From: Deltaproteobacteria bacterium
GTDB taxonomy: Bacteria; Myxococcota_A; Polyangia; JAAYKL01
Reading direction: 5' to 3'
Assembly: GCA_016935665.1 (NCBI GenBank)
Contig: JAFGQN010000025.1
Location: forward strand, 1-49,193
DNA length: 49,193 nucleotides
Under the pieces are notes generated by a model that saw nothing but the letters and a program-made list of their open reading frames with translations, was not told the origin of the DNA and did no database searches. A program made the position numbers and the translations under genes. Below, piece by piece: positions 6,214 to 49,164 of this stretch. Positions within the stretch are counted from its first letter, which is position 1; each line of letters opens with the position of its first letter.

Positions 6214-7578
6214 TCATTTGATCATCGGCGCCATATGCGGTTTGAGAGCGTTGATTTTCCACTCGAGGGGCGTCAGCCAGTCGTATTGCAGGATGCCTTC
6301 GGTGTCCCCGGAATTGGGATTGAGACTCCAGAATGTCCACGAATACCCATCACTTTTACTCATGTAGTCCAAAAATGTGTTGAACCATTGCCCGGCCACA
6401 CCTCCGGCGGAATCAGGGTCTCGAATACCAAACTCGCCAATGAACACGTGCCCCTTTTCTTCGTTGACCAGATATCCAAAGTTCTTTTGCCAGATGCTGC
6501 TCATATTGTCCGGAAAGTCGCTCGCTTCAAACCATGGCTGAGCAAACACTTCCGGGCCGTATTCATGAGCCGAATACACCAGTTTTTCCGGAATGGGCAG
6601 TTGAATGGGGTCGGATTTTGCGCCCATCAGGTTTCCGCCCCACCAGTAACCATTCCCCTTCCATTCCTCCACGCCTTCCACCACAATCAGCACATCGGGA
6701 TTGGCCTGCTGAATGGCCGCGCCGCATCGTTCGGCCGCCTTGTTCCAATCCGTGGATTCCGCTCCGGCGCCCCAGGTGGCCCCATCGTGGGGTTCGTTGT
6801 TGAGGTCAAACGCAATCACCGTGGTATTGCCCTTGTATCGCTTCGCCATAAACACCCAGTCTTCCACCCATTGATTTTCGGAACAGGTATCGGTGTACCA
6901 CAGGTCTTCTTCCATATAGCCATCGGGGTTTCGCGAGTGGTTGTCCAGCATCACCTTGAGTCCCACCGCTGTGGCGGCATCGATGACCTTGTCCATCACT
7001 TCGATGGGGGGGAGCCCTTCAATGTCGCCGTTCATGGGATCGGTTCCATCGTATTTGTCCGCTCCATAGGTGTTGATGGATTGGGTCGCTGCACCGTCCC
7101 GCAGCATTTCGTTGCACCAGGGAATACGGACAGTATTAAATCCCAAATCGGCTATCTGTTTCATCATGCTGCGATAATCGCGTTCCCAAAGCCCGTGAGG
7201 AGAGAGATTTCCTGTTTCAAAGCCAAACCAGTTCACACCGGTTAGCCTGGCCACATTGCCATTGTCGTCCACCAGGCGATTGCCGGATACGTGCAAAAAT
7301 CCGGATGCCTGCGCTGGGGGTTTTGAATCGGAATCAGGTTCATATTTGTCATTCAAATCGTCACTGTCTCCGTCGTTGTTACCGTCGTTGTTGCCGTCGT
7401 TGTTGCCGTCGTTATTGCCGTCGTTGTTGCCGTCGTTATTGCCGTCATTGCTGCCGTCGTTGTTGCCATCCGTTGAACGGGTATCGGTTCGACCGGGGCC
7501 ATCGCTGTCAGTGCAGGTAACAATAGTGGTACACATCATCAACAGGACTGCGGGAAGTAAGAAGATCTGTTTTAACAT
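6214..7578 (-). CDS. Glycoside hydrolase family 5 endoglucanase-like lipoprotein
   Basis: 454 residues. The N-terminus is a hydrophobic lipoprotein-type signal (lipidated Cys at 16 or, more likely, 22 in TIVTC), followed by a Gly-Asn-Asn-Asp repeat linker (about residues 38-70). The rest is a GH5 catalytic domain: FNTVRIPWCNEML, the acid/base in DLNNEPHD (E262), SAHEYGP, and the nucleophile in FIGEFGI (E382). The spacing of the two glutamates fits clan GH-A retaining enzymes acting on beta-1,4-glucans or related mannans. Surface tethering through a flexible linker suggests attack on external polysaccharide. No carbohydrate-binding module and no partner hydrolases are seen nearby. The ribosome-binding site is weak (GCGAG). 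Confidence 0.9.
   Translation of the reverse strand: MLKQIFLLPAVLLMMCTTIVTCTDSDGPGRTDTRSTDGNNDGSNDGNNDGNNDGNNDGNNDGNNDGNNDGDSDDLNDKYEPDSDSKPPAQASGFLHVSGNRLVDDNGNVARLTGVNWFGFETGNLSPHGLWERDYRSMMKQIADLGFNTVRIPWCNEMLRDGAATQSINTYGADKYDGTDPMNGDIEGLPPIEVMDKVIDAATAVGLKVMLDNHSRNPDGYMEEDLWYTDTCSENQWVEDWVFMAKRYKGNTTVIAFDLNNEPHDGATWGAGAESTDWNKAAERCGAAIQQANPDVLIVVEGVEEWKGNGYWWGGNLMGAKSDPIQLPIPEKLVYSAHEYGPEVFAQPWFEASDFPDNMSSIWQKNFGYLVNEEKGHVFIGEFGIRDPDSAGGVAGQWFNTFLDYMSKSDGYSWTFWSLNPNSGDTEGILQYDWLTPLEWKINALKPHMAPMIK
7367..7468 (-). repeat. In-frame 12-bp tandem repeat encoding the GNND linker
   Basis: About eight copies of a 12-bp unit (gccgtcgttgtt on the plus strand) encode the Gly-Asn-Asn-Asp spacer between lipid anchor and GH5 domain. 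Copies differ by single bases (gttatt, attgct). The unit is a multiple of three, so slippage would change linker length, not frame. Confidence 0.85.
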
Positions 7579-26294: not shown

Positions 26295-28163
26295 CTATAT
26301 CATTTTTTTGGCCGCATCCAAAACGGCAACTGCGGATTTTATGCGACCGAATGGCGCCGCCACCTGTATACCCTGAACCCTCGGCAGCACTTTCTCCATC
26401 AGTTCTATGGCGATTTGCAGCCCTTCCTGGCGCTCGTCGCCGTCTTTGTGGGCCTTTGCCATTCTGGCAAGAACCGCTTCGGGGACAGATACACCAGGCA
26501 TTTCATTGGCCAGAAATTCCGCGTTTCTAAGACTCTGCAACGGCCAAATGCCCGCCAGAACTGGCACCCTGGCGCCGGGGTCCACTCTGTCTAGAAACGA
26601 TAACAGCTGGTCGGCGTCAAAGACCGGCTGAGTGATGACCCCCAGCGCGCCGGCATCCACCTTAAGCTTCAGTCGTTTCAGTTCCTTTTGCTGATTAACG
26701 GCCGTGGGATTCAACCCCACCAGCGGCACATACCCGGTGGGCTGCCCAATGGAGCGACCGCTTAAATCCAGGCCGGTATTGAGCTTCTTTATCATTTTGG
26801 TCAACCCAATGGCGTCCACGTCGAAAACGGCGGTGGCGTTGGGGTAATCGCCCATGATAGGCGGATCGCCGGTAATAACCAGTATATTTTTGAGTCCCAG
26901 CGCGTAAGCGCCCAGTAAATCCGCCTGCATGCCCACCAGATTGCGATCGCGACAGGCGTAATGCATTACCGTCTCTATCTGAACATCTCTTTCAATCACC
27001 ACCGCCATGGCCATGGGGCCCATGCGCGCCGAGGCTCTGGGACCGTCCGGAATATTAATGGCGTCAAATCCCGCATCTTTGACCGATTGGCTGCTCACCA
27101 GTATGCGCTTGAGATCCCATCCCTGCGGCGGTGTCAGTTCAACGGTGGCCACAAACTCCCCGGCAGCCAGCCTGGCCCCCAGATTCGACCGTTTCGCAAG
27201 CGGGATTTCCGGTTTGGCTTCTTCCACTTCCACGATGGTATCCGCAGATACGATCAATGATCGCGCCTCCCCGCTCATCTGTCGAATGGAGGCGGAGATG
27301 GCCTGAATGTGCGTCGGCGTGGATCCGCAACAACCGCCCACCACCTGTGCGCCCACCGACACGAACCGCCGTGCGTAATTGGCCATGTAATCCGGCGAGC
27401 AAACATAAATGGTGCGGCCTTCCACCTGAGTGGGCAATCCGGCGTTGGGCATGACACTTAAGGGCACGTGGGTCACGCGGCGAATGCGCTCCAGAGCGTC
27501 AAGCATGGGCTTGGGACCTACCGAGCAGTTGAGGCCAATCACATCCGCTCCATCCCGCTCCAGCTGAATGGCCAAATCCTCTGCTTTGGCGCCGTACACG
27601 GTATTGCCCTCCTGGTTCACCGTGATGGAGCAAATCATGGGGACATCCAATTGCCTCAAACTGGCCACCTGTTTCACCGCCAGCATGGCATGCCGGATTT
27701 CATCCAAATCCGAGAAGGTTTCCAGGATGATAACATCCACCCCGCCCTCCACCAGTGCATCGATTTGCTCCACAAATGCGTCGGTAACAGTAAAATCCGC
27801 ATCCGGTTCCAGCAGCGGCTCAATTTTAACCCCCAAAGGTCCCACCGCGCCTGCCACCAGCACATTGTCCCCGGCCGCCTCTTTGGCCAGCCGCACCCCG
27901 GCCAGATTGATTTCTTTTACTTTGCCGGACAAATCAAACGACGCCAGCTTAAACCGATTGGCGCCAAAGGTGTTGGTTTCGATGACCATGGCCCCGGCCG
28001 CCACAAAATCCCTGTGAACGCGCGTGACCAGTTTGGGGTCGGTCAGATTGAGCTGATCAAAACAGCGGTTAATGAATACGCCGTGATCAAAAAGGGTTGT
28101 TCCCATACCGCCATCAAAGATAACTGTCTGTTTTTCAATTAATGTACGAAAACGATTTTTCAT
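26295..28163 (-). CDS. Bifunctional homocysteine S-methyltransferase / methylenetetrahydrofolate reductase
   Basis: 622 residues, the length of the fused enzymes typified by B. subtilis YitJ. Residues 1-300 are the homocysteine methyltransferase barrel: IFDGGMGTTLFDHG, ETNTFGAN, and the zinc ligands in LNCSVGP and GGCCGSTPTHI. Residues about 325-610 are a MetF-type flavin barrel (FVATVELTPPQGWD, NILVITGDPP, GVITQPVFDADQLLSFLD). Together they reduce methylene-THF and methylate homocysteine to methionine. It heads a six-gene minus-strand run. The upstream region holds two dyads (28187-28208 and 28280-28297), but I see no SAM riboswitch. Confidence 0.92.
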   Translation of the reverse strand: MKNRFRTLIEKQTVIFDGGMGTTLFDHGVFINRCFDQLNLTDPKLVTRVHRDFVAAGAMVIETNTFGANRFKLASFDLSGKVKEINLAGVRLAKEAAGDNVLVAGAVGPLGVKIEPLLEPDADFTVTDAFVEQIDALVEGGVDVIILETFSDLDEIRHAMLAVKQVASLRQLDVPMICSITVNQEGNTVYGAKAEDLAIQLERDGADVIGLNCSVGPKPMLDALERIRRVTHVPLSVMPNAGLPTQVEGRTIYVCSPDYMANYARRFVSVGAQVVGGCCGSTPTHIQAISASIRQMSGEARSLIVSADTIVEVEEAKPEIPLAKRSNLGARLAAGEFVATVELTPPQGWDLKRILVSSQSVKDAGFDAINIPDGPRASARMGPMAMAVVIERDVQIETVMHYACRDRNLVGMQADLLGAYALGLKNILVITGDPPIMGDYPNATAVFDVDAIGLTKMIKKLNTGLDLSGRSIGQPTGYVPLVGLNPTAVNQQKELKRLKLKVDAGALGVITQPVFDADQLLSFLDRVDPGARVPVLAGIWPLQSLRNAEFLANEMPGVSVPEAVLARMAKAHKDGDERQEGLQIAIELMEKVLPRVQGIQVAAPFGRIKSAVAVLDAAKKMI

Positions 28164-33900: not shown

Positions 33901-34222
33901 GGCGAGTGTTTATCAGTGATCACTTTTTTTGTAAATCACTACATGCGGAGTCTGCAGAACATCCCATTTGTCGATATTGTCCCTTGAAATGAATTGAAAA
34001 AGGCCAATTGTACTTCTTTTGAAATATCCAATGCCGTTCATCAGTTCAACGCGCAACGGATAATTATTTTTCAAGGGGGATTTGTTTGTTTAGATTCGGA
34101 AAATCGGGAAAAAAAGTTGCGGAGAAACTGAACGTCCGTATATCCTACGGTGAAATTTGGCCCTTTGCCCAATTGAACCAACGGACATAGGCACAGGTCT
34201 GGCAAGGAAAAGAAAACGCATT
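33901..34222. other. Intergenic region between divergent genes
   Basis: 322 nt without a credible gene. It should hold promoters for the barrel gene (minus) and exbB/tolQ (plus). It is A/T-rich around 33990-34120, with several T- and A-runs. I see no strong dyad, riboswitch-like fold or open frame with codon bias. Confidence 0.5.
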
Positions 34223-34996
34223 ATGAATGAAATTGTAAACACTGTACTGGTAAGCGGCATGGCAGGACAAACCGAAGGGGGGGCGGTGAGCGAGGCGGGC
34301 AGCATCGATCAAATGCTGGGTCTGATAGCGGACGCATCTCCCATTGTAAAAGGGGTGATTGCCCTGCTGGTGATTTTTATCTTATCGGGCGTTTTTATTG
34401 TTGTGTACAAGTACATCCAGATAAAGCGCGCCCACAGACAAACCGGCCGGTTTCTCGACATTTTCTGGTCGTCCAAAAGGCTCGACGAAATCTATCAGGC
34501 CGCCGATCAGTATGAGCGCAGCCCCATCTCCAAGCTGTTTAAGGCCGGATACATTGAGCTTTCCAAGCTTAAAAGCAGTGAAAAGGCGCAGCAGGAGGGC
34601 GATGGTCGGCAACGTGACGAAACCAGCGCCGGCGCCATTGGCAACGTGGAGCGATCATTGCGTCGCGCCATGACCTCGGAAGTGACGTACCTGGAAAGCA
34701 TGGTGCCCTTTTTGGCCACCATTGGTTCCACCGCGCCGTTTGTGGGCCTCTTTGGTACGGTAATCGGTATCATGATTTCGTTTATGCAAATCAATCAGAG
34801 TGGGTCGGCGGGAATGGATGTGGTCTCTCAGGGCATCTCCGAAGCGCTGATTGCCACCGCCATTGGTCTTTTGGCCGCTATTCCCGCGGTGATTGCCTAT
34901 AACTATTTTCTTCGCAGAATTCGCGTGCTGTCGTCGGAGATGGAAAACTTTTCCAGCGATTTCATTAACATTGTGAAGCGGCATTTCTTCAAATAG
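34223..34996 (+). CDS. MotA/TolQ/ExbB proton-channel family protein
   Basis: 257 residues from the ATG at 34223; the frame is open from 34157, but the extra residues are basic and out of character. Three membrane segments fit the family: IVKGVIALLVIFILSGVFIVVYKYI near the N-terminus, then MVPFLATIGSTAPFVGLFGTVIGIM and ALIATAIGLLAAIPAVIAYNYF after a cytoplasmic loop. The TxGxxAPxxGLxGTVxGxM signature is intact. With the ExbD/TolR protein encoded 12 nt downstream it would form a proton-driven motor for outer-membrane transport or Tol-Pal-type envelope work. No TonB, TolA or Pal gene is in the window. Confidence 0.9.
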   Translation: MNEIVNTVLVSGMAGQTEGGAVSEAGSIDQMLGLIADASPIVKGVIALLVIFILSGVFIVVYKYIQIKRAHRQTGRFLDIFWSSKRLDEIYQAADQYERSPISKLFKAGYIELSKLKSSEKAQQEGDGRQRDETSAGAIGNVERSLRRAMTSEVTYLESMVPFLATIGSTAPFVGLFGTVIGIMISFMQINQSGSAGMDVVSQGISEALIATAIGLLAAIPAVIAYNYFLRRIRVLSSEMENFSSDFINIVKRHFFK

Positions 34997-35008
34997 ACGG
35001 AGTTACCC

Positions 35009-35476
35009 ATGGCAATGGCAACAGGCGGCGGCAATGGTCCAATGAGCGAAATCAACATCACGCCCCTCGTGGATGTGATGCTGGTGTTGCTGATTATTTT
35101 TATGATTACGGCACCGATGATAAACGACAAGGGGGTAGAGCTGGATTTGCCCAAAGCAGAGGCCACTCCCATGGAGGTGGATGAATCCAAACTGGTAATG
35201 ACCATCGACAAAGATCGTCAGGTGTTTCTGGGCGAAACGCTCATCCCCAACGCCAATCTGGAAGACGCACTGGGCAACAACGCCCGACTGCAGCGGGAAG
35301 GCGAACTTTACTTACAGGCCGATAAAGACGTCCCCTATGGCTTTGTGGTGCAGGTCATGGCCATCGTTAAAAAGGCGGGCATCCCCAAACTGGGAATGGT
35401 TACCGACCCCAATGGCGGACAATGGCCGCCCCCTCCGGAAGATATGGGCGACCAGCCTGCATCCCCTAAAGAATAG
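35009..35476 (+). CDS. ExbD/TolR biopolymer transport protein
   Basis: 155 residues with GGAG 6 nt before the ATG. The family signature is clear: MSEINITPLVDVMLVLLIIFMITAP, a single membrane helix with the essential Asp (D22). Next comes a periplasmic domain (VELDLPKAEATPME, ...VPYGFVVQVMAIVKKAGIPKLGMVTDP) and a Pro-rich tail. It partners the ExbB/TolQ protein encoded immediately upstream in an inner-membrane proton channel. TolR and ExbD cannot be separated by sequence here. Convergent with the next gene, 28 nt away. Confidence 0.92.
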   Translation: MAMATGGGNGPMSEINITPLVDVMLVLLIIFMITAPMINDKGVELDLPKAEATPMEVDESKLVMTIDKDRQVFLGETLIPNANLEDALGNNARLQREGELYLQADKDVPYGFVVQVMAIVKKAGIPKLGMVTDPNGGQWPPPPEDMGDQPASPKE

Positions 35477-36136: not shown

Positions 36137-37165
36137 ATGGTTTGGATAATCGTTATTATTGCACTTGGTATTCTCATTGCGTTTCACGAGCTGGGGCACT
36201 ACGGCCTGGCGCGCATACTGGGGATGAAGGTGGTGAAATACTCCATCGGTTTTTTTAAGCCCATCTTCACCTGGACCTCTCAAAAATCGGGCATCACCTA
36301 CCAGATTGGCGCCGTTCCGCTGGGCGGATTTGTGCAGGTCAAGGGAATGAATCCGTTTGAAGAGGGCGCATTTGAGGACGTGGATTCCTATCAGATGCAG
36401 TCCCCCTGGAAGCGGGGACTGGTGATTGTGGCAGGGCCAGTGGCCAACCTGCTCATTGCCTGGGTGATTCTGTTTGCGCTGGTGGGCATGGTGGGGTTTC
36501 CCAATCCTGTCAATGAAGCGGGGGTGGGGCAGCTGGTGCCCGAGGCGCCGGCAGAAAAAGCCGGATTGAAGACGGGCGACGAAGTCCTTCAGATAAACGG
36601 CATTGCCGTAAAAACCTTCGATGACATGGTGGAACAGATTGGCGCCAACGCCGGTAAAAAAACGCTGCTGCTCATTCAGCGGGAGGGTCGCCGTATACCG
36701 GTTACCATTGTGCCTAAAGACGAAGATGGCGTGGGTAAAATCGGCGTGTATCCCCCCAGCGAGTTGGTGCATTTGAGTATTGGCGACGCGGCAAAGTTTG
36801 CCACGCTCAAATGCGTTCAGGTGCTTTCCGACGCACTGGGCGGCTTGTGGGGCATGATTTCGCGCACGCGCACCGATGTGAAGCCCGCTGGACCGCCCGC
36901 CATTTTAAAAATGGCCAAGGTGCAGTACGAAAGCGGCTTCATCAACTTCCTGGCGTTCATGTCGTTTATCAGTCTGATGCTCTTTTTATTCAATCTGCTG
37001 CCCATCCCCGCGCTCGACGGCGGTCGGACCGTGTTTTTACTGTACGAACTGATCACCCGCAAACGGGTGAACAAGCGGCTGGACGCCACACTCAATACCA
37101 TCTTTTTCTTTATTTTGATTACCCTGGTTGGCGTCATTTCAGTTAAAGAAGTGTTTTTCGATTAG
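36137..37165 (+). CDS. rseP: RseP-type site-2 intramembrane metalloprotease
   Basis: 342 residues. HELGH (H17, E18, H21) lies in the first membrane helix and PIPALDGGR (D294) near the C-terminus, completing the zinc site of M50B proteases. One PDZ domain (about 120-195: [30 protein letters not shown]) sits between, as in the shorter RseP homologues; E. coli RseP has two. It cleaves membrane-anchored anti-sigma factors and leftover signal peptides. The single-pass anti-sigma factor encoded at 45873-46724 is a conceivable client, but this is inference. ettA follows 76 nt downstream. Confidence 0.92.
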
Positions 37166-45041: not shown

Positions 45042-45313
45042 GTTTACTCCCTGATAAATATCGCGGGTCATTTCTGTATTCGGGTTTGTCACTGTTTATC
45101 ACCTGTCTTAGCCATTGTCGAATGCTTTTGCCACTTAACAATGACGGTACACGGCATATCGCACCACTTGTTTTATGGAACGCCCCGCGCAAAGGAAACC
45201 GCAACGGATTTCGTTATTCCTGCTCGTGATGTCATCATATCAGCAACGGATGGATTGCATAAAAAATCATAAACTATAGGTTTACCTTTCGCTGGATTCC
45301 AGGTCATCAGCTA

Positions 45314-45880
45314 ATGGAACACAGAAAAGGAGGCATTTTGCAAATCGGTGCGGAAATGGTGGCGCAGTTAAGACAGGGAAACAGCGACACACGTCAGCGA
45401 TTCTGGGAAGAGTCGTTTGATGCAGTACTGGCTATCTGTTCACGTATTCTGGGGTCGGGACCCCAGTCCATTGATGTCACCACGGATTTGCTGAATGACT
45501 TCTTGTTTCATTATGTACAGAATCTTAAAAATCCGCATGGCGCATGGTCATATCTCAAGTTAATGGCCATTCGACGCGCCGTGCGAGAGAGGCAGCGAAT
45601 GATGACCGGTGAACCTTTTGATGATCAACAGATGGACTATCCCGGAGGGGAGATGGATGACGTCGAGACAACCGTTTTGCTCCCAAAGTTGAATCAGTGT
45701 CTGGCGTTGCTCACCCCTAAAGCGCAGAGTACAGTGCGGCTGAAGTATCGACAGGGAATGTCTAACGAACAGATTGGTCATGTGGTGGGAGGCTCCAAAC
45801 AGTACATCGGCAGACTGTTGACCCAGAGTCTGGCCGCACTTCGCGAGTGTCTGCAGCGAAAGGCGGTGGCCAATGGATAA
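45314..45880 (+). CDS. ECF-type RNA polymerase sigma factor
   Basis: 188 residues if the ATG at 45314 is used. A strong AAAGGAGG at 45326-45333 is placed for the TTG at 45338 (4-nt spacer), so the true start may be there. Region 2 spans about residues 25-95 (FDAVLAICSRILG...LLNDFLFHYVQNL...WSYLKLMAIRRAVRERQ). Region 4 spans about 125-180 (LLPKLNQCLALLTPKAQSTVRLKYRQGMSNEQIGHVVGGSKQYIGRLLTQSLAALRECL). The region 3 linker is short, as in ECF factors. It overlaps the next gene, an anti-sigma factor, by 8 nt. It should direct polymerase to this operon and others when released. Confidence 0.88.
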   Translation: MEHRKGGILQIGAEMVAQLRQGNSDTRQRFWEESFDAVLAICSRILGSGPQSIDVTTDLLNDFLFHYVQNLKNPHGAWSYLKLMAIRRAVRERQRMMTGEPFDDQQMDYPGGEMDDVETTVLLPKLNQCLALLTPKAQSTVRLKYRQGMSNEQIGHVVGGSKQYIGRLLTQSLAALRECLQRKAVANG

Positions 45881-46724
45881 AAAAACACCCATTGCAAAGC
45901 TCCCGGTATCCCGGGTCGAAGATCTGTTGCGTCAGCGTCCGTTTTACGACATGGCAGACGATTGTCCCCATACCGAGGAAATAGCCAATGCCCTGGCGGA
46001 TGGCACAACGCCGGCAGAGCTTGAAAAGCGCTTTCCCCATGTGCAGCAGTGCGATATTTGCAAAGCGTCCATTCATCTTTTTAACCAAATGGCCAATGAA
46101 ATTGGCAGCCCCGAACAAAAACCGGCGCCACGGCCGGCTAAGAATGTGATTTCGCTGTCGAAGCGGACGCGAGTATCCCGGCGGACGGTGTTTGTTTTTT
46201 CAATGGCAGCGGTGCTGCTGGCGGGGCTGGCGGCAGGCGTTGGATTCGTGATATGGCAATCGCAGCAGACACAGTCACAGCCGGACACGCTGGTTCCCAA
46301 AGGGGCATCCTATGATTTGGAAATCGCAGTGAGTCGAAACGGTTTGGGATTTCCTTTGAGAGAGGGCGAAATGGTGGAAACCGGCGATCGCCTGGGCTTC
46401 TTTTACAGTGCATCCGAAGGGTCGCATATGGCGCTGTTTCACGTGGATGGACAGCGGCAGATGACGGTACTGTACCCCGTAGAAGGCAAACGGACGGCGT
46501 TTGTTCAAAAAGGGGAACGGATTCGCATTCGGGACGGTGCGCTGGTGACGCCATCCACCACTTGTGAGTGGATTGTGGCGCTGTTCACTCCCAAAGAGAC
46601 GTCGCTTTCACGCCTTATAAGTCATTTGCGACGAAATGTGCGTGTTGGAGAGAATTGCAACTTAAAGATTACGGATATGGACACCGCCAGAATAAAAGTA
46701 CAGCAGATACGAAAAATAGAATGA
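45873..46724 (+). CDS. Membrane anti-sigma factor with ZAS-like zinc site and DUF4384-like sensor domain
   Basis: 283 residues. The cytoplasmic N-terminus holds Hx3Cx2C (H56, C60, C63 in FPHVQQCDIC) plus an upstream CPH (C31-H33), the zinc-binding anti-sigma pattern. One membrane helix follows at about 104-126 (FVFSMAAVLLAGLAAGVGFVIW). The C-terminal domain outside the membrane (PLREGEMVETGDRLGFFYSASEGSHMALFHVDGQRQMTVLYP) resembles DUF4384, often found with caspase-fold proteins. Its start overlaps the sigma gene end, a standard coupled pair. Redox-active Cys ligands would allow signal release by thiol oxidation, or the protein could be cleaved by RseP. Confidence 0.85.
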   Translation: MDKKTPIAKLPVSRVEDLLRQRPFYDMADDCPHTEEIANALADGTTPAELEKRFPHVQQCDICKASIHLFNQMANEIGSPEQKPAPRPAKNVISLSKRTRVSRRTVFVFSMAAVLLAGLAAGVGFVIWQSQQTQSQPDTLVPKGASYDLEIAVSRNGLGFPLREGEMVETGDRLGFFYSASEGSHMALFHVDGQRQMTVLYPVEGKRTAFVQKGERIRIRDGALVTPSTTCEWIVALFTPKETSLSRLISHLRRNVRVGENCNLKITDMDTARIKVQQIRKIE

Positions 46725-46732
46725 GGGATTGA

Positions 46733-48361
46733 ATGAAAAAAGCGCTGTTCGCAGCCATGACGTTACTGATATTGACCACCAGCACGAGCGCTTCGCAGGC
46801 GGCCACGATGCGGTATGCGCTGATTATTGGCAACAATTCGGGCCTCGATGGCGATGGGAACACACCGTTTGCCCCGTTGAGGTACGCAGAAAAAGAAGCC
46901 AAAAGGCTCAAAAAGAAGCTGGTGGGACTGTCCAATTTTGCGGCGGATTCCAAACGCACGCTCCTGTTGACTGCGGCAACGCGCCAGGATGTGCGCAACG
47001 CGGTAAACCGGCTGGCGAGGCAAAAGAAAAACGACGAGCAGATGCTGGGCGAAGTGGAGTCCATTTTTCTGTTTTACTTTACGGGGCATGGCCTGCAGGG
47101 GAGGCTGCTGCTGAACGACGGACCGCTCTATTCCAGTGAAATCGGAAACATGTTCGAACGGGTGGATGCGGATTTCGCAGTGGGCGTGTTTGATGCCTGT
47201 CACAGCGGATCGCTCTCTCCCAAAGGGGTGGTGTCCACGCCAGGGTTCAACATGTTCAATGAGATGCCCAAAGAGGTGTTGAATGCCCGGGGACGAGTCT
47301 GGTACGTGTCCAGTTCGGCGCAACAAATGAGTTACGAGGATACCCAAATCGGTGGCGTGTTTACCCATTTTTTCATCAAGGCACTCACCGATGCACCGCG
47401 CAACGGGCCAGGGATTACCCTTGAGAGCATTTGGAACTTTGCCAGGGAAAAAACCGTACAGTTTACCCGAAAGCAAAATCGCACGCAGGAGCCTCAGCAA
47501 TACATATCCGAACTGAAATCCAGTGCGCCGGTGTATTTTTCCTTCCCCCTCAAACGCACCGCCACATTGCGCATGTCAAGGGAGTTGCGCGGCCGATATG
47601 CGTTGTCGTATGCGCAGGGACAGCTCACTGAAATCATAGACAAAAAATCGGGAGTCGCCAAGTCTGTGGCGCTGTATTCGGGTAAAGTGACACTGAGTTA
47701 TATTCAGGGAGAAACCGTCACGCTGGTCAAAACGTTTCATGTGGAAGATGGCGGGGATTTGATTTTAAGGAGCCAGTCGGACCTGGAAGCCGCTGTCCCC
47801 CTGGCATATCAGAGTGAAACGCTTTGGGCCAAAGGGACCGATGATTTGCAGATGCTGGAGTTGCGCCGGAAAACCGGCGGCACCTCCATGCTTCTTGGTG
47901 GATCATATGGATACAGCTTTGCCGCTGATGGGCTGCTGACCAATGGTCACATAGTATCAATGCCGATTCGCCTGGATTTCAAACGCCTGTATCTGGCCAG
48001 CAAAGTGGGTTGGGTGGGGGAGGATCGCGATACGGGTGTTTGGGGGTACGATGCCGACAGTGTGGTGATGAGTGTGGAAGGGGGACCGGCCTTCGACATC
48101 TATTCCAATCGCATCACCGTGGGGCCGGACTTTGAATACATGCATTTGTGGCAGGAATTCAACGATGAAACCCGGCAGCAGTCCGACGCGTTCAGCCTGG
48201 GCGCAAAGGCCACGTGGCTGTTTCACAAGGATCGCCGGTTCAACGCTTCGTTCTTTGTACGGGCCGGGGAAGTGTACGCCAAGGCCGCCGCCGCTTCCAA
48301 TGACTATTTCTGGGGATTCTGCATGAATGCGGGTCTGACTCTTTTTGTACGGCTGATATGA
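46733..48361 (+). CDS. Secreted caspase-fold (C14) protein with barrel-like C-terminal half
   Basis: 542 residues with a signal peptide (MKKALFAAMTLLILTTSTSASQA). Residues about 25-260 are a caspase/metacaspase p20-type domain: YALIIGNN, catalytic His in FYFTGHG (H119) and catalytic Cys in VGVFDACHSGS (C156), then VSSSAQQMSYED and GVFTHFFIKAL. Both active-site residues are intact. The C-terminal 250 residues alternate like beta-strands (RLYLASKVGW, VVMSVEGGPAFDIYSNRITVGPDFEYMHLW) and end GLTLFVRLI, suggestive of an outer-membrane barrel. The protein would then be a protease in the envelope rather than the cytosol. Third gene of the sigma operon, 8 nt after the anti-sigma gene. Confidence 0.85.
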   Translation: MKKALFAAMTLLILTTSTSASQAATMRYALIIGNNSGLDGDGNTPFAPLRYAEKEAKRLKKKLVGLSNFAADSKRTLLLTAATRQDVRNAVNRLARQKKNDEQMLGEVESIFLFYFTGHGLQGRLLLNDGPLYSSEIGNMFERVDADFAVGVFDACHSGSLSPKGVVSTPGFNMFNEMPKEVLNARGRVWYVSSSAQQMSYEDTQIGGVFTHFFIKALTDAPRNGPGITLESIWNFAREKTVQFTRKQNRTQEPQQYISELKSSAPVYFSFPLKRTATLRMSRELRGRYALSYAQGQLTEIIDKKSGVAKSVALYSGKVTLSYIQGETVTLVKTFHVEDGGDLILRSQSDLEAAVPLAYQSETLWAKGTDDLQMLELRRKTGGTSMLLGGSYGYSFAADGLLTNGHIVSMPIRLDFKRLYLASKVGWVGEDRDTGVWGYDADSVVMSVEGGPAFDIYSNRITVGPDFEYMHLWQEFNDETRQQSDAFSLGAKATWLFHKDRRFNASFFVRAGEVYAKAAAASNDYFWGFCMNAGLTLFVRLI

Positions 48362-49164
48362 CACAGGTGAAAATATCAAAAGTGTCCGCAAAGTGCACAA
48401 AGGAACGTTTAATTGGCCCGATTTCGCCACTGTTTTTGTTGCTGGCCTCAATGACCTGGGGCTGCATCGAGGATGTCAACGGAATCGCCTGCGTGCTGCA
48501 CTCGGACTGCGCAAGCCAGGAATGCAGAAACGGGGTGTGCGTGGGAGATCCTCTGCCGTCTTCTGAAGAAACAGAAAAAGACAGCGATTCCTCTTCCGAA
48601 TCGGTAGAAGGAACAGACGACACGGATACCTATCCCCCCCTGACGGATACCTATCCCCCCCTGGAGGGAGTCGATATTTTGTTTGTGGTGGATAACAGCA
48701 ACTCCATGGCCGAGGAACAGCAAATGTTGTCCACGGCCCTTTACAATCTGATGAATGTGCTCAGCCTCACCCAGGAGATGGGGCAACTGGATATGCACCT
48801 GGGGGTGACCACCACGGATATGGGCGTCGCCTATGGCGAGAATTATTTTCAGGGGAGTTCAACGGAGATGCTGTTTTCCAATGACCGCGTCAGATGCTAC
48901 GGCCGCGGGACGGACGGGGCACTGCTGACCGAATATCTCAGCAAGGATATTTATTTTACCGTATCGGTAAGCGATGAGGAAATTGAATGCTACGATGGGC
49001 GTTCCAATTGCCCAATCGATTGGGTATGCACCAACATGGACAGCGTCAGTGGAAAAGGGGTATGTACACCGCTTTACAAGGACAGGCAAGCCATCGTGGG
49101 ATGTCCGCAGGGGGATCGCAATGTCGTCCGATGTATTTTCGCTGATCATTTAGAGATTCTTTGA
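48358..49164 (+). CDS. VWA-domain lipoprotein, possibly truncated
   Basis: 268 residues. Its ATG overlaps the stop codon of the caspase gene (ATGA). A long N-region is followed by a lipoprotein-type signal (FLLLASMTWGC), a Cys-rich segment (CVLHSDCASQECRNGVC, DKK/EB-like), an acidic Ser/Glu linker with a TDTYPPL repeat, then a von Willebrand A domain beginning VDILFVVDNSNSM with an intact MIDAS start (D-x-S-x-S). GVTTTDMG fits the next strand. The frame closes at 49162 soon after CIFADHLEIL, shorter than related lipoproteins I recall, so a frameshift or a truncated copy is possible. The window ends 29 nt later. Confidence 0.75.
   Translation: MTQVKISKVSAKCTKERLIGPISPLFLLLASMTWGCIEDVNGIACVLHSDCASQECRNGVCVGDPLPSSEETEKDSDSSSESVEGTDDTDTYPPLTDTYPPLEGVDILFVVDNSNSMAEEQQMLSTALYNLMNVLSLTQEMGQLDMHLGVTTTDMGVAYGENYFQGSSTEMLFSNDRVRCYGRGTDGALLTEYLSKDIYFTVSVSDEEIECYDGRSNCPIDWVCTNMDSVSGKGVCTPLYKDRQAIVGCPQGDRNVVRCIFADHLEIL

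Follow-up and report, generated by a model that had tools for sequence, protein, structure and literature searches.

A predicted outer-membrane-anchored caspase as candidate site-1 protease of a DUF4384-type ECF anti-sigma factor in Myxococcota

The genes for an ECF sigma factor, a membrane-bound anti-sigma factor and a secreted caspase-fold protein form a phylum-wide module in Myxococcota, and we propose, with a probability of about 0.5, that the caspase, anchored in the outer membrane and facing the periplasm, makes the site-1 cut in the anti-sigma factor, with RseP acting next. This reading draws on the pairing of the genes, on an intact catalytic dyad with an acidic S1 pocket, and on a basic residue that never varies within the disordered linker of the anti-sigma factor. 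Further points in its favour are the barrel and the N-terminal placement of the caspase domain, a promoter motif with its regulon, and the presence of an RseP-type protease. The broader picture is given a somewhat less than even probability: in Myxococcota, an outer-membrane-tethered caspase would reach across the periplasm, cut the anti-sigma factor after Lys or Arg and pass surface signals on to gene expression, as an envelope transducer and not a death enzyme, with several copies per genome wired to interchangeable lipoproteins. For most bacterial caspase homologues the natural role is not known, and they are usually discussed in terms of programmed cell death. The relatives described here may control genes instead of cell death.

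The window, by which we mean the whole stretch of DNA that was analysed, is the entire contig C16 of 49,193 bp and belongs to a genome of 8.16 Mb in 249 contigs, the publicly available relatives of which are MAGs from Deltaproteobacteria/Myxococcota. At its right end lie four packed genes, which a first-pass annotation had described as overlapping or at most 8 nt apart and as encoding an ECF sigma factor, a ZAS-type anti-sigma factor with a DUF4384 domain, a caspase-fold protein and a VWA lipoprotein (Table 1). Order and spacing were confirmed: the sigma and anti-sigma genes overlap by 8 nt, a gap of 8 nt precedes the caspase gene, and the caspase stop codon overlaps the lipoprotein start as ATGA. 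The first two assignments hold as well, with TIGR02937 and DUF4384 scoring above their cut-offs and the zinc-binding motif being present. The Pfam region-4 models stayed below cut-off on the sigma protein. The true start of the sigma gene is probably the TTG at 45338 and not the ATG at 45314, because the TTG is preceded by a perfect AGGAGG and agrees with the start in the closest relative, whereas the ATG lies merely 8 nt past the -10 element of the promoter. Matches to DUF433 and Haemadin in the domain search were below cut-off and were disregarded.

Table 1. Features of the sigma/anti-sigma/caspase locus and the RseP-type gene, in window coordinates
Feature	Position	Strand	Remarks
RseP-type site-2 protease, candidate for the second step	36137..37165	+	Peptidase_M50 1.1e-52, with PDZ
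ECF-type promoter motif GGTTTAC-N16-GGTC	45279..45305	+	shared upstream of relatives' sigma genes
ECF sigma factor	45314..45880	+	TIGR02937 44.3 bits (cut-off 42.9); short protein
ZAS-type anti-sigma factor, membrane-bound, outer domain DUF4384	45873..46724	+	DUF4384 28.2 bits (cut-off 27); HxxxCxxC
ZAS zinc-binding motif HVQQCDIC, residues 56-63	46038..46061	+	H56, C60 and C63 each in 17/20 of the alignment
Transmembrane helix, residues 103-133	46179..46271	+	AlphaFold; hydrophobic stretch in the homologues examined
K143-G144, candidate site-1 cleavage site	46299..46304	+	basic in 20/20 and 49/49; disordered linker
DUF4384 beta domain, predicted periplasmic, residues 147-280	46311..46712	+	Pfam; pLDDT ~90
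Caspase-fold protein, predicted to be secreted and to end in an outer-membrane barrel	46733..48361	+	Peptidase_C14 3.8e-17; model pLDDT 83
Signal peptide, residues 1-24	46733..46804	+	hydrophobic N-terminus ending ASQAA; equivalent in homologues
E55, acidic S1-pocket residue (= TbMC2 D95)	46895..46897	+	E/D in all sequences covering it
Catalytic His119	47087..47089	+	invariant in the 28/28 and 29/29 alignments
D154-A-C156, S1 Asp and catalytic Cys	47192..47200	+	D and C invariant
Small beta domain following the caspase fold and preceding the barrel, residues 275-368	47555..47836	+	AlphaFold strands, pLDDT 74-85
Eight-strand beta-barrel, residues 385-541	47885..48355	+	AlphaFold pLDDT ~90; Foldseek
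VWA lipoprotein gene, 3' part missing	48358..49164	+	frame ends 29 bp before contig end

Full-length caspase-barrel proteins are encoded five times in the genome of the window, occur in five of 13 other genomes of the family, and were found in further Myxococcota-type MAGs. The gene order is conserved, with sigma and anti-sigma genes directly upstream of the caspase gene in 13 of the 16 full-length loci. Two paralogues in the same genome (L011 and L012) and the locus L031 contain a full-length caspase gene without adjacent sigma and anti-sigma genes, so the caspase also works without that pair. Both orphan paralogues (L011:7523-9223 and L012:6992-8767) are followed by lipoprotein genes, whose products contain DUF285 in L011 and are Asp/Thr-rich with a Gly-rich distal part in L012. 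In another locus of this genome (L009:3692-5128, contig C231), the sigma and anti-sigma homologues upstream of a caspase paralogue share a single open frame of 478 aa, which is either a natural fusion or an assembly slip. Seen from the side of the anti-sigma factor, five of the six DUF4384 matches in the genome are anti-sigma proteins encoded directly upstream of caspase genes; the sixth (G000:C224:30251-30460) does not adjoin the caspase gene of its contig. A profile search of the phylum with the anti-sigma alignment matched 87 of 379 genomes, and a caspase gene lies within 1.5 kb of the anti-sigma gene in 28 of the 29 non-window loci kept from this search. Such near-exclusive pairing of DUF4384 anti-sigma factors with caspases across the phylum suggests a direct link.

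The caspase-fold protein reached 63.2 bits with Pfam Peptidase_C14 (cut-off 21.4). Searched by sequence against the PDB, the caspase alignment gave no match, so that a fold search was required. In an AlphaFold model built with 12 homologues, residues 25-270 adopt the caspase fold, and VIA-align gave a Z of 21.7 to caspase-6/-7 across residues 22-271. The C-terminal part, previously annotated as barrel-like, was modelled with eight strands, and Foldseek matched it to OmpX (3.1e-6) and OmpA (4.3e-6) as well as to Ail and OprF; Pfam OMP_b-brl was matched by one homologue in A2 and by two of nine phylum relatives. As to the aromatic C-terminal signature of outer-membrane proteins, the window protein ends in FVRLI, and F or Y is the last residue in several relatives from the phylum. 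On the basis of these models, the C-terminus is predicted to be embedded in the membrane as a barrel of the OmpA/OmpX type. Since the barrel behind it is even-stranded, the caspase domain should sit in the periplasm according to established barrel topology, and the earlier view of an envelope-facing caspase under ECF/anti-sigma control is supported to this extent. The analysis gave no support to the response to surface damage that had been suggested with it.

Both catalytic residues, His119 and Cys156, are intact as annotated, and E55 and D154 occupy the positions of D95 and D211 of TbMC2 in a sequence alignment. In metacaspases and orthocaspases, the acidic S1 pocket (Asp95 and Asp211 in TbMC2) accommodates a basic P1 residue (PMC6426788), and the orthocaspase MaOC1 has a preference for basic clusters (PMC7935541). 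Because the dyad and both acidic S1 residues are kept, cleavage after Lys or Arg is predicted for the protein described here. It has the fold, the His/Cys dyad and the acidic pocket in common with MaOC1 and TbMC2 of Peptidase C14, but differs from them in its predicted signal peptide, C-terminal outer-membrane barrel, envelope location and coupling to an ECF sigma factor.

A matching residue is found in the anti-sigma factor, the AlphaFold model of which consists of a helical N-terminus and the transmembrane helix, followed by disordered residues 134-144 (pLDDT < 50) ahead of the DUF4384 domain. Linker position 143 is K in 19 and R in one of 20 aligned homologues and thereby better conserved than the ZAS residues, which are kept in 17 of the 20. 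When the phylum loci are added, the basic residue is K in 45 and R in four of 49 linkers, the residue after it is G in 43, S in five and A in one, and R stands at P3, two residues before it, in 27; of these 49 linkers, the 29 from the phylum were read by eye, are not all independent of each other and had been gathered with a profile containing the Lys column. Proteins collected by means of Pfam DUF4384 are free of selection on this residue, since that model begins about 25 residues past the Lys, and among them all six of the ZAS type have Lys-Gly at -24 to -29 together with a neighbouring caspase gene. The idea that Lys-Gly is a general trait of DUF4384 proteins was rejected for those without a ZAS domain: in secreted DUF4384 proteins it is missing at the anti-sigma position, and KG occurs at -11 or -14 in three. 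One DUF4384 protein with a transmembrane anchor and no ZAS motif (L079) has Lys-Gly at -21, and no caspase was seen within 1.5 kb of it.

The ZAS zinc residues are lost in the homologue at L027:8405-9211 (genome G004), which retains DUF4384 as well as Lys-Gly in the linker, and in that of L018, which keeps the basic residue. Some linkers carry additional basic residues. The Lys-Gly lies three to four residues ahead of the first DUF4384 strand and could have a structural role instead. A Foldseek search with the anti-sigma model returned weak immunoglobulin-like matches only, for example the Bacillus proteinase inhibitor 3isy (E 0.01), which were not counted as evidence. Judged by these alignments, the linker is a better conserved candidate substrate than the VWA protein.

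The proposed circuit would start from a resting state in which the anti-sigma factor, located in the inner membrane, holds the ECF sigma factor by its ZAS domain. Upon an envelope or surface cue, the barrel-tethered caspase would cut the linker after the invariant Lys/Arg and remove the DUF4384 domain, leaving a short stub, the cleavage of which by RseP would free the sigma factor. The caspase would thus take the place of DegS-type site-1 proteases. In cutting a single-pass anti-sigma factor in two steps, the proposed circuit would resemble RseA/DegS/RseP, but the site-1 enzyme would be a caspase-fold cysteine protease with a basic P1 and not a trypsin-fold PDZ protease. Release of the sigma factor by RseP had been suggested in the first-pass annotation; an RseP-type gene is present in the window and the step is plausible, but the gene lies 8 kb off and is unlinked to the operon. 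An ExbB/ExbD-type pair is encoded close upstream of it (34157-35476). If the proposal is true, it would extend regulated intramembrane proteolysis by a new class of protease, with a caspase-fold protease serving as envelope signal transducer instead of death enzyme. Cleavage of a sigma inhibitor by a caspase-like protease is known from Craspase (Csx29, Csx30 and CASP-sigma of type III-E CRISPR), where an ECF-like sigma factor is relieved of inhibition in this way (PMC10028731). This system differs in being cytosolic and RNA-activated and in using a TPR-CHAT protease, and none of its genes was seen here: the four operon proteins gave no TPR or CHAT match, and no Cas gene was found among the window genes scanned.

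The combination of an outer-membrane barrel protein, an inner-membrane anti-sigma factor, an ECF sigma factor and RseP is also the architecture of cell-surface signalling. Together with Craspase, TonB-dependent signalling through FecA/FecR/FecI and FoxA/FoxR/FoxI is the nearest analogue; it shares with the present system the outer-membrane barrel, the inner-membrane anti-sigma factor with a periplasmic domain, the ECF sigma factor and proteolysis of the anti-sigma factor (PMC11637429). The systems differ in that the outer-membrane component here is a caspase on an eight-strand barrel and not a TonB receptor with an STN signalling domain, and in that the outer domain of the anti-sigma factor is DUF4384. 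TonB-dependent transducers gate the proteolysis of FoxR-type anti-sigma factors. The periplasmic domain of the Fox outer-membrane protein shields the anti-sigma factor from proteolysis (PMC11637429). Furthermore, DUF4384 is also found fused to caspase-type proteins (PMC6426788). The outer-membrane caspase protein might, by analogy, bind DUF4384 and gate the proteolysis of the anti-sigma factor by other proteases, its own protease activity being used for another substrate or for maturation. We consider this unlikely, since the system described here has no TonB receptor and the domain search detected no STN or TonB-dependent transducer domain in the four operon proteins. Gating would also leave the invariant basic residue of the linker, the invariant active site and the acidic S1 pocket unexplained.

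Returning to the proposed caspase-driven circuit, its transcriptional output can be followed through the promoter motif. The motif ahead of the window's sigma gene also precedes the sigma genes of L027, L028, L029 and L052; L026 and L010 have a variant, and L030 has the -35 half alone. In L028, L029 and L052, a motif of the type GGTTTAC-N15/16-GGTC stands between the caspase gene and that of the lipoprotein as well. A scan for standard sigma-70 promoters and terminators yielded nothing useful on the plus strand. The strict form GGTTTACYTTTN12GGTC has three exact matches in the 8.2 Mb genome, compared with a chance expectation of about 0.03 per genome calculated from base composition, and these sites belong to the window's sigma operon and to the upstream regions of two VWA lipoprotein genes. 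When three genomes of the genus were searched blind for the strict form, four exact matches emerged, two at sigma operons and two at VWA lipoprotein genes elsewhere. In G004, a site with two mismatches lies 15 nt ahead of a second VWA gene, and in G005 a site with one mismatch precedes a gene for a lipoprotein with an Asp/Ser-rich linker. In general, matches with two mismatches were taken to be mostly due to chance (37 in the genome of the window, G000, versus 94 for the reversed control). Exact matches of a looser pattern on contigs C36 and C102 fall within other ORFs and were set aside.

Since the motif stands before sigma operons and VWA lipoprotein genes alike, it is very likely that surface lipoproteins are under the control of the sigma factor along with its own operon. 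Once free, it would act on its own operon in a positive feedback, raising caspase and lipoproteins, and on other GGTTTAC-N15/16-GGTC promoters before surface lipoprotein genes, which are of the VWA type in this genus. At one of the further sites in the genome of the window (L091:693-2918, contig C103), a gene for a VWA lipoprotein of 741 aa begins about 100 bp past an exact copy of the motif; no caspase gene is present within the 6 kb read around it.

Of the features expected from the annotation of the fourth gene as a VWA lipoprotein gene, DNSNS, corresponding to the DxSxS of a MIDAS, is present, but the VWA match is weak (E 0.07) in a fragment cut by the contig end, and the lipobox MTWGC is non-canonical (the relative L027b has ILGC). 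Related lipoproteins have 430-490 aa and the contig ends here, so the C-terminal half is missing from the window frame, which tracks its relatives as far as residue 255 or so before it stops. Contig C217 opens with the C-terminal part of a VWA lipoprotein gene followed by two more VWA lipoprotein genes and by a further lipoprotein gene that is present at the same place in the relative G004. Owing to this leading part and the lipoprotein shared with G004, C217 is probably the continuation of the window contig. The VWA lipoprotein genes of C217 stand in tandem (L092, 63-3945), one of them behind the same promoter motif.

A lipoprotein gene follows the caspase gene in most loci, and what its product keeps is a head rich in Cys and a linker rich in Asp and Thr. 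The domain beyond them is VWA in the window, L026, L027, L028 and L029, a beta-propeller in L030 and L048, and amidase-like in L010 (read by eye); others are DUF285 in L011, a CBM96-like domain in L009 and EGF/FGE in L050. With this variation among relatives, the VWA protein, earlier suggested as substrate or partner of the caspase, was rejected as a dedicated, conserved one. The products of the fourth gene look like interchangeable surface-exposed modules and not like a fixed partner.

These lipoproteins also bear on a different reading, in which the sigma/anti-sigma pair answers a cue of its own, such as thiol oxidation of the ZAS domain or a DUF4384 ligand, and the caspase is only one of its products, which processes surface lipoproteins or kills the cell. 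The caspase gene is co-transcribed downstream of the sigma gene, some lipoproteins of the regulon have long linkers of low complexity, and the orphan paralogues in L011 and L012 are accompanied by lipoproteins, all of which would fit. We regard it as doubtful and place it behind gating by other proteases, because the loss of ZAS residues in L027 and L018 with retention of the linker basic residue argues against a purely ZAS-based switch, and the near-exclusive gene pairing points to a direct link. A module for conflict or cell death like those with EACC1/EACC2, with the ECF sigma factor as accessory to a caspase effector, is very improbable: ECF sigma genes are found near EACC2-caspase genes (PMC8195603), but NCBIfam caspase_w_EACC1 (NF047832) scored 43.4 bits against a cut-off of 140 with no EACC domain detected, the caspase protein is predicted to be secreted and to have an outer-membrane barrel, and the scan of window genes turned up none for defence.

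The association of sigma factors with caspases is not new, as it was reported in 2012 (Asplund-Samuelsson 2012, PMC3501461). The operon passage of that study places four of the five M. xanthus metacaspases in operons with sigma factors and names further cases in Anaeromyxobacter, Haliangium, Sorangium, Ralstonia and Fibrobacter. The myxobacterial examples combine a sigma-70 factor and a metacaspase in one predicted operon within the same phylum and are very probably the same system as the one described here; the passage itself names only sigma factors, with no anti-sigma factor, linker residue, promoter, regulon or barrel. A search of the open literature, which leaves subscription journals largely uncovered, found no paper tying caspases to this type of anti-sigma factor. 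In the present case, a specific substrate, cleavage residue, transcriptional output and promoter are proposed for a bacterial caspase from sequence alone. With M. xanthus as a tractable organism for which four sigma-linked metacaspase operons are reported (PMC3501461), an old question becomes an experiment with few mutants.

Two observations concern other parts of the window. The gene at 26295-28163 encodes homocysteine S-methyltransferase and methylenetetrahydrofolate reductase domains in one fused protein, and a gene of the GH5 cellulase family is located at 6214-7578.
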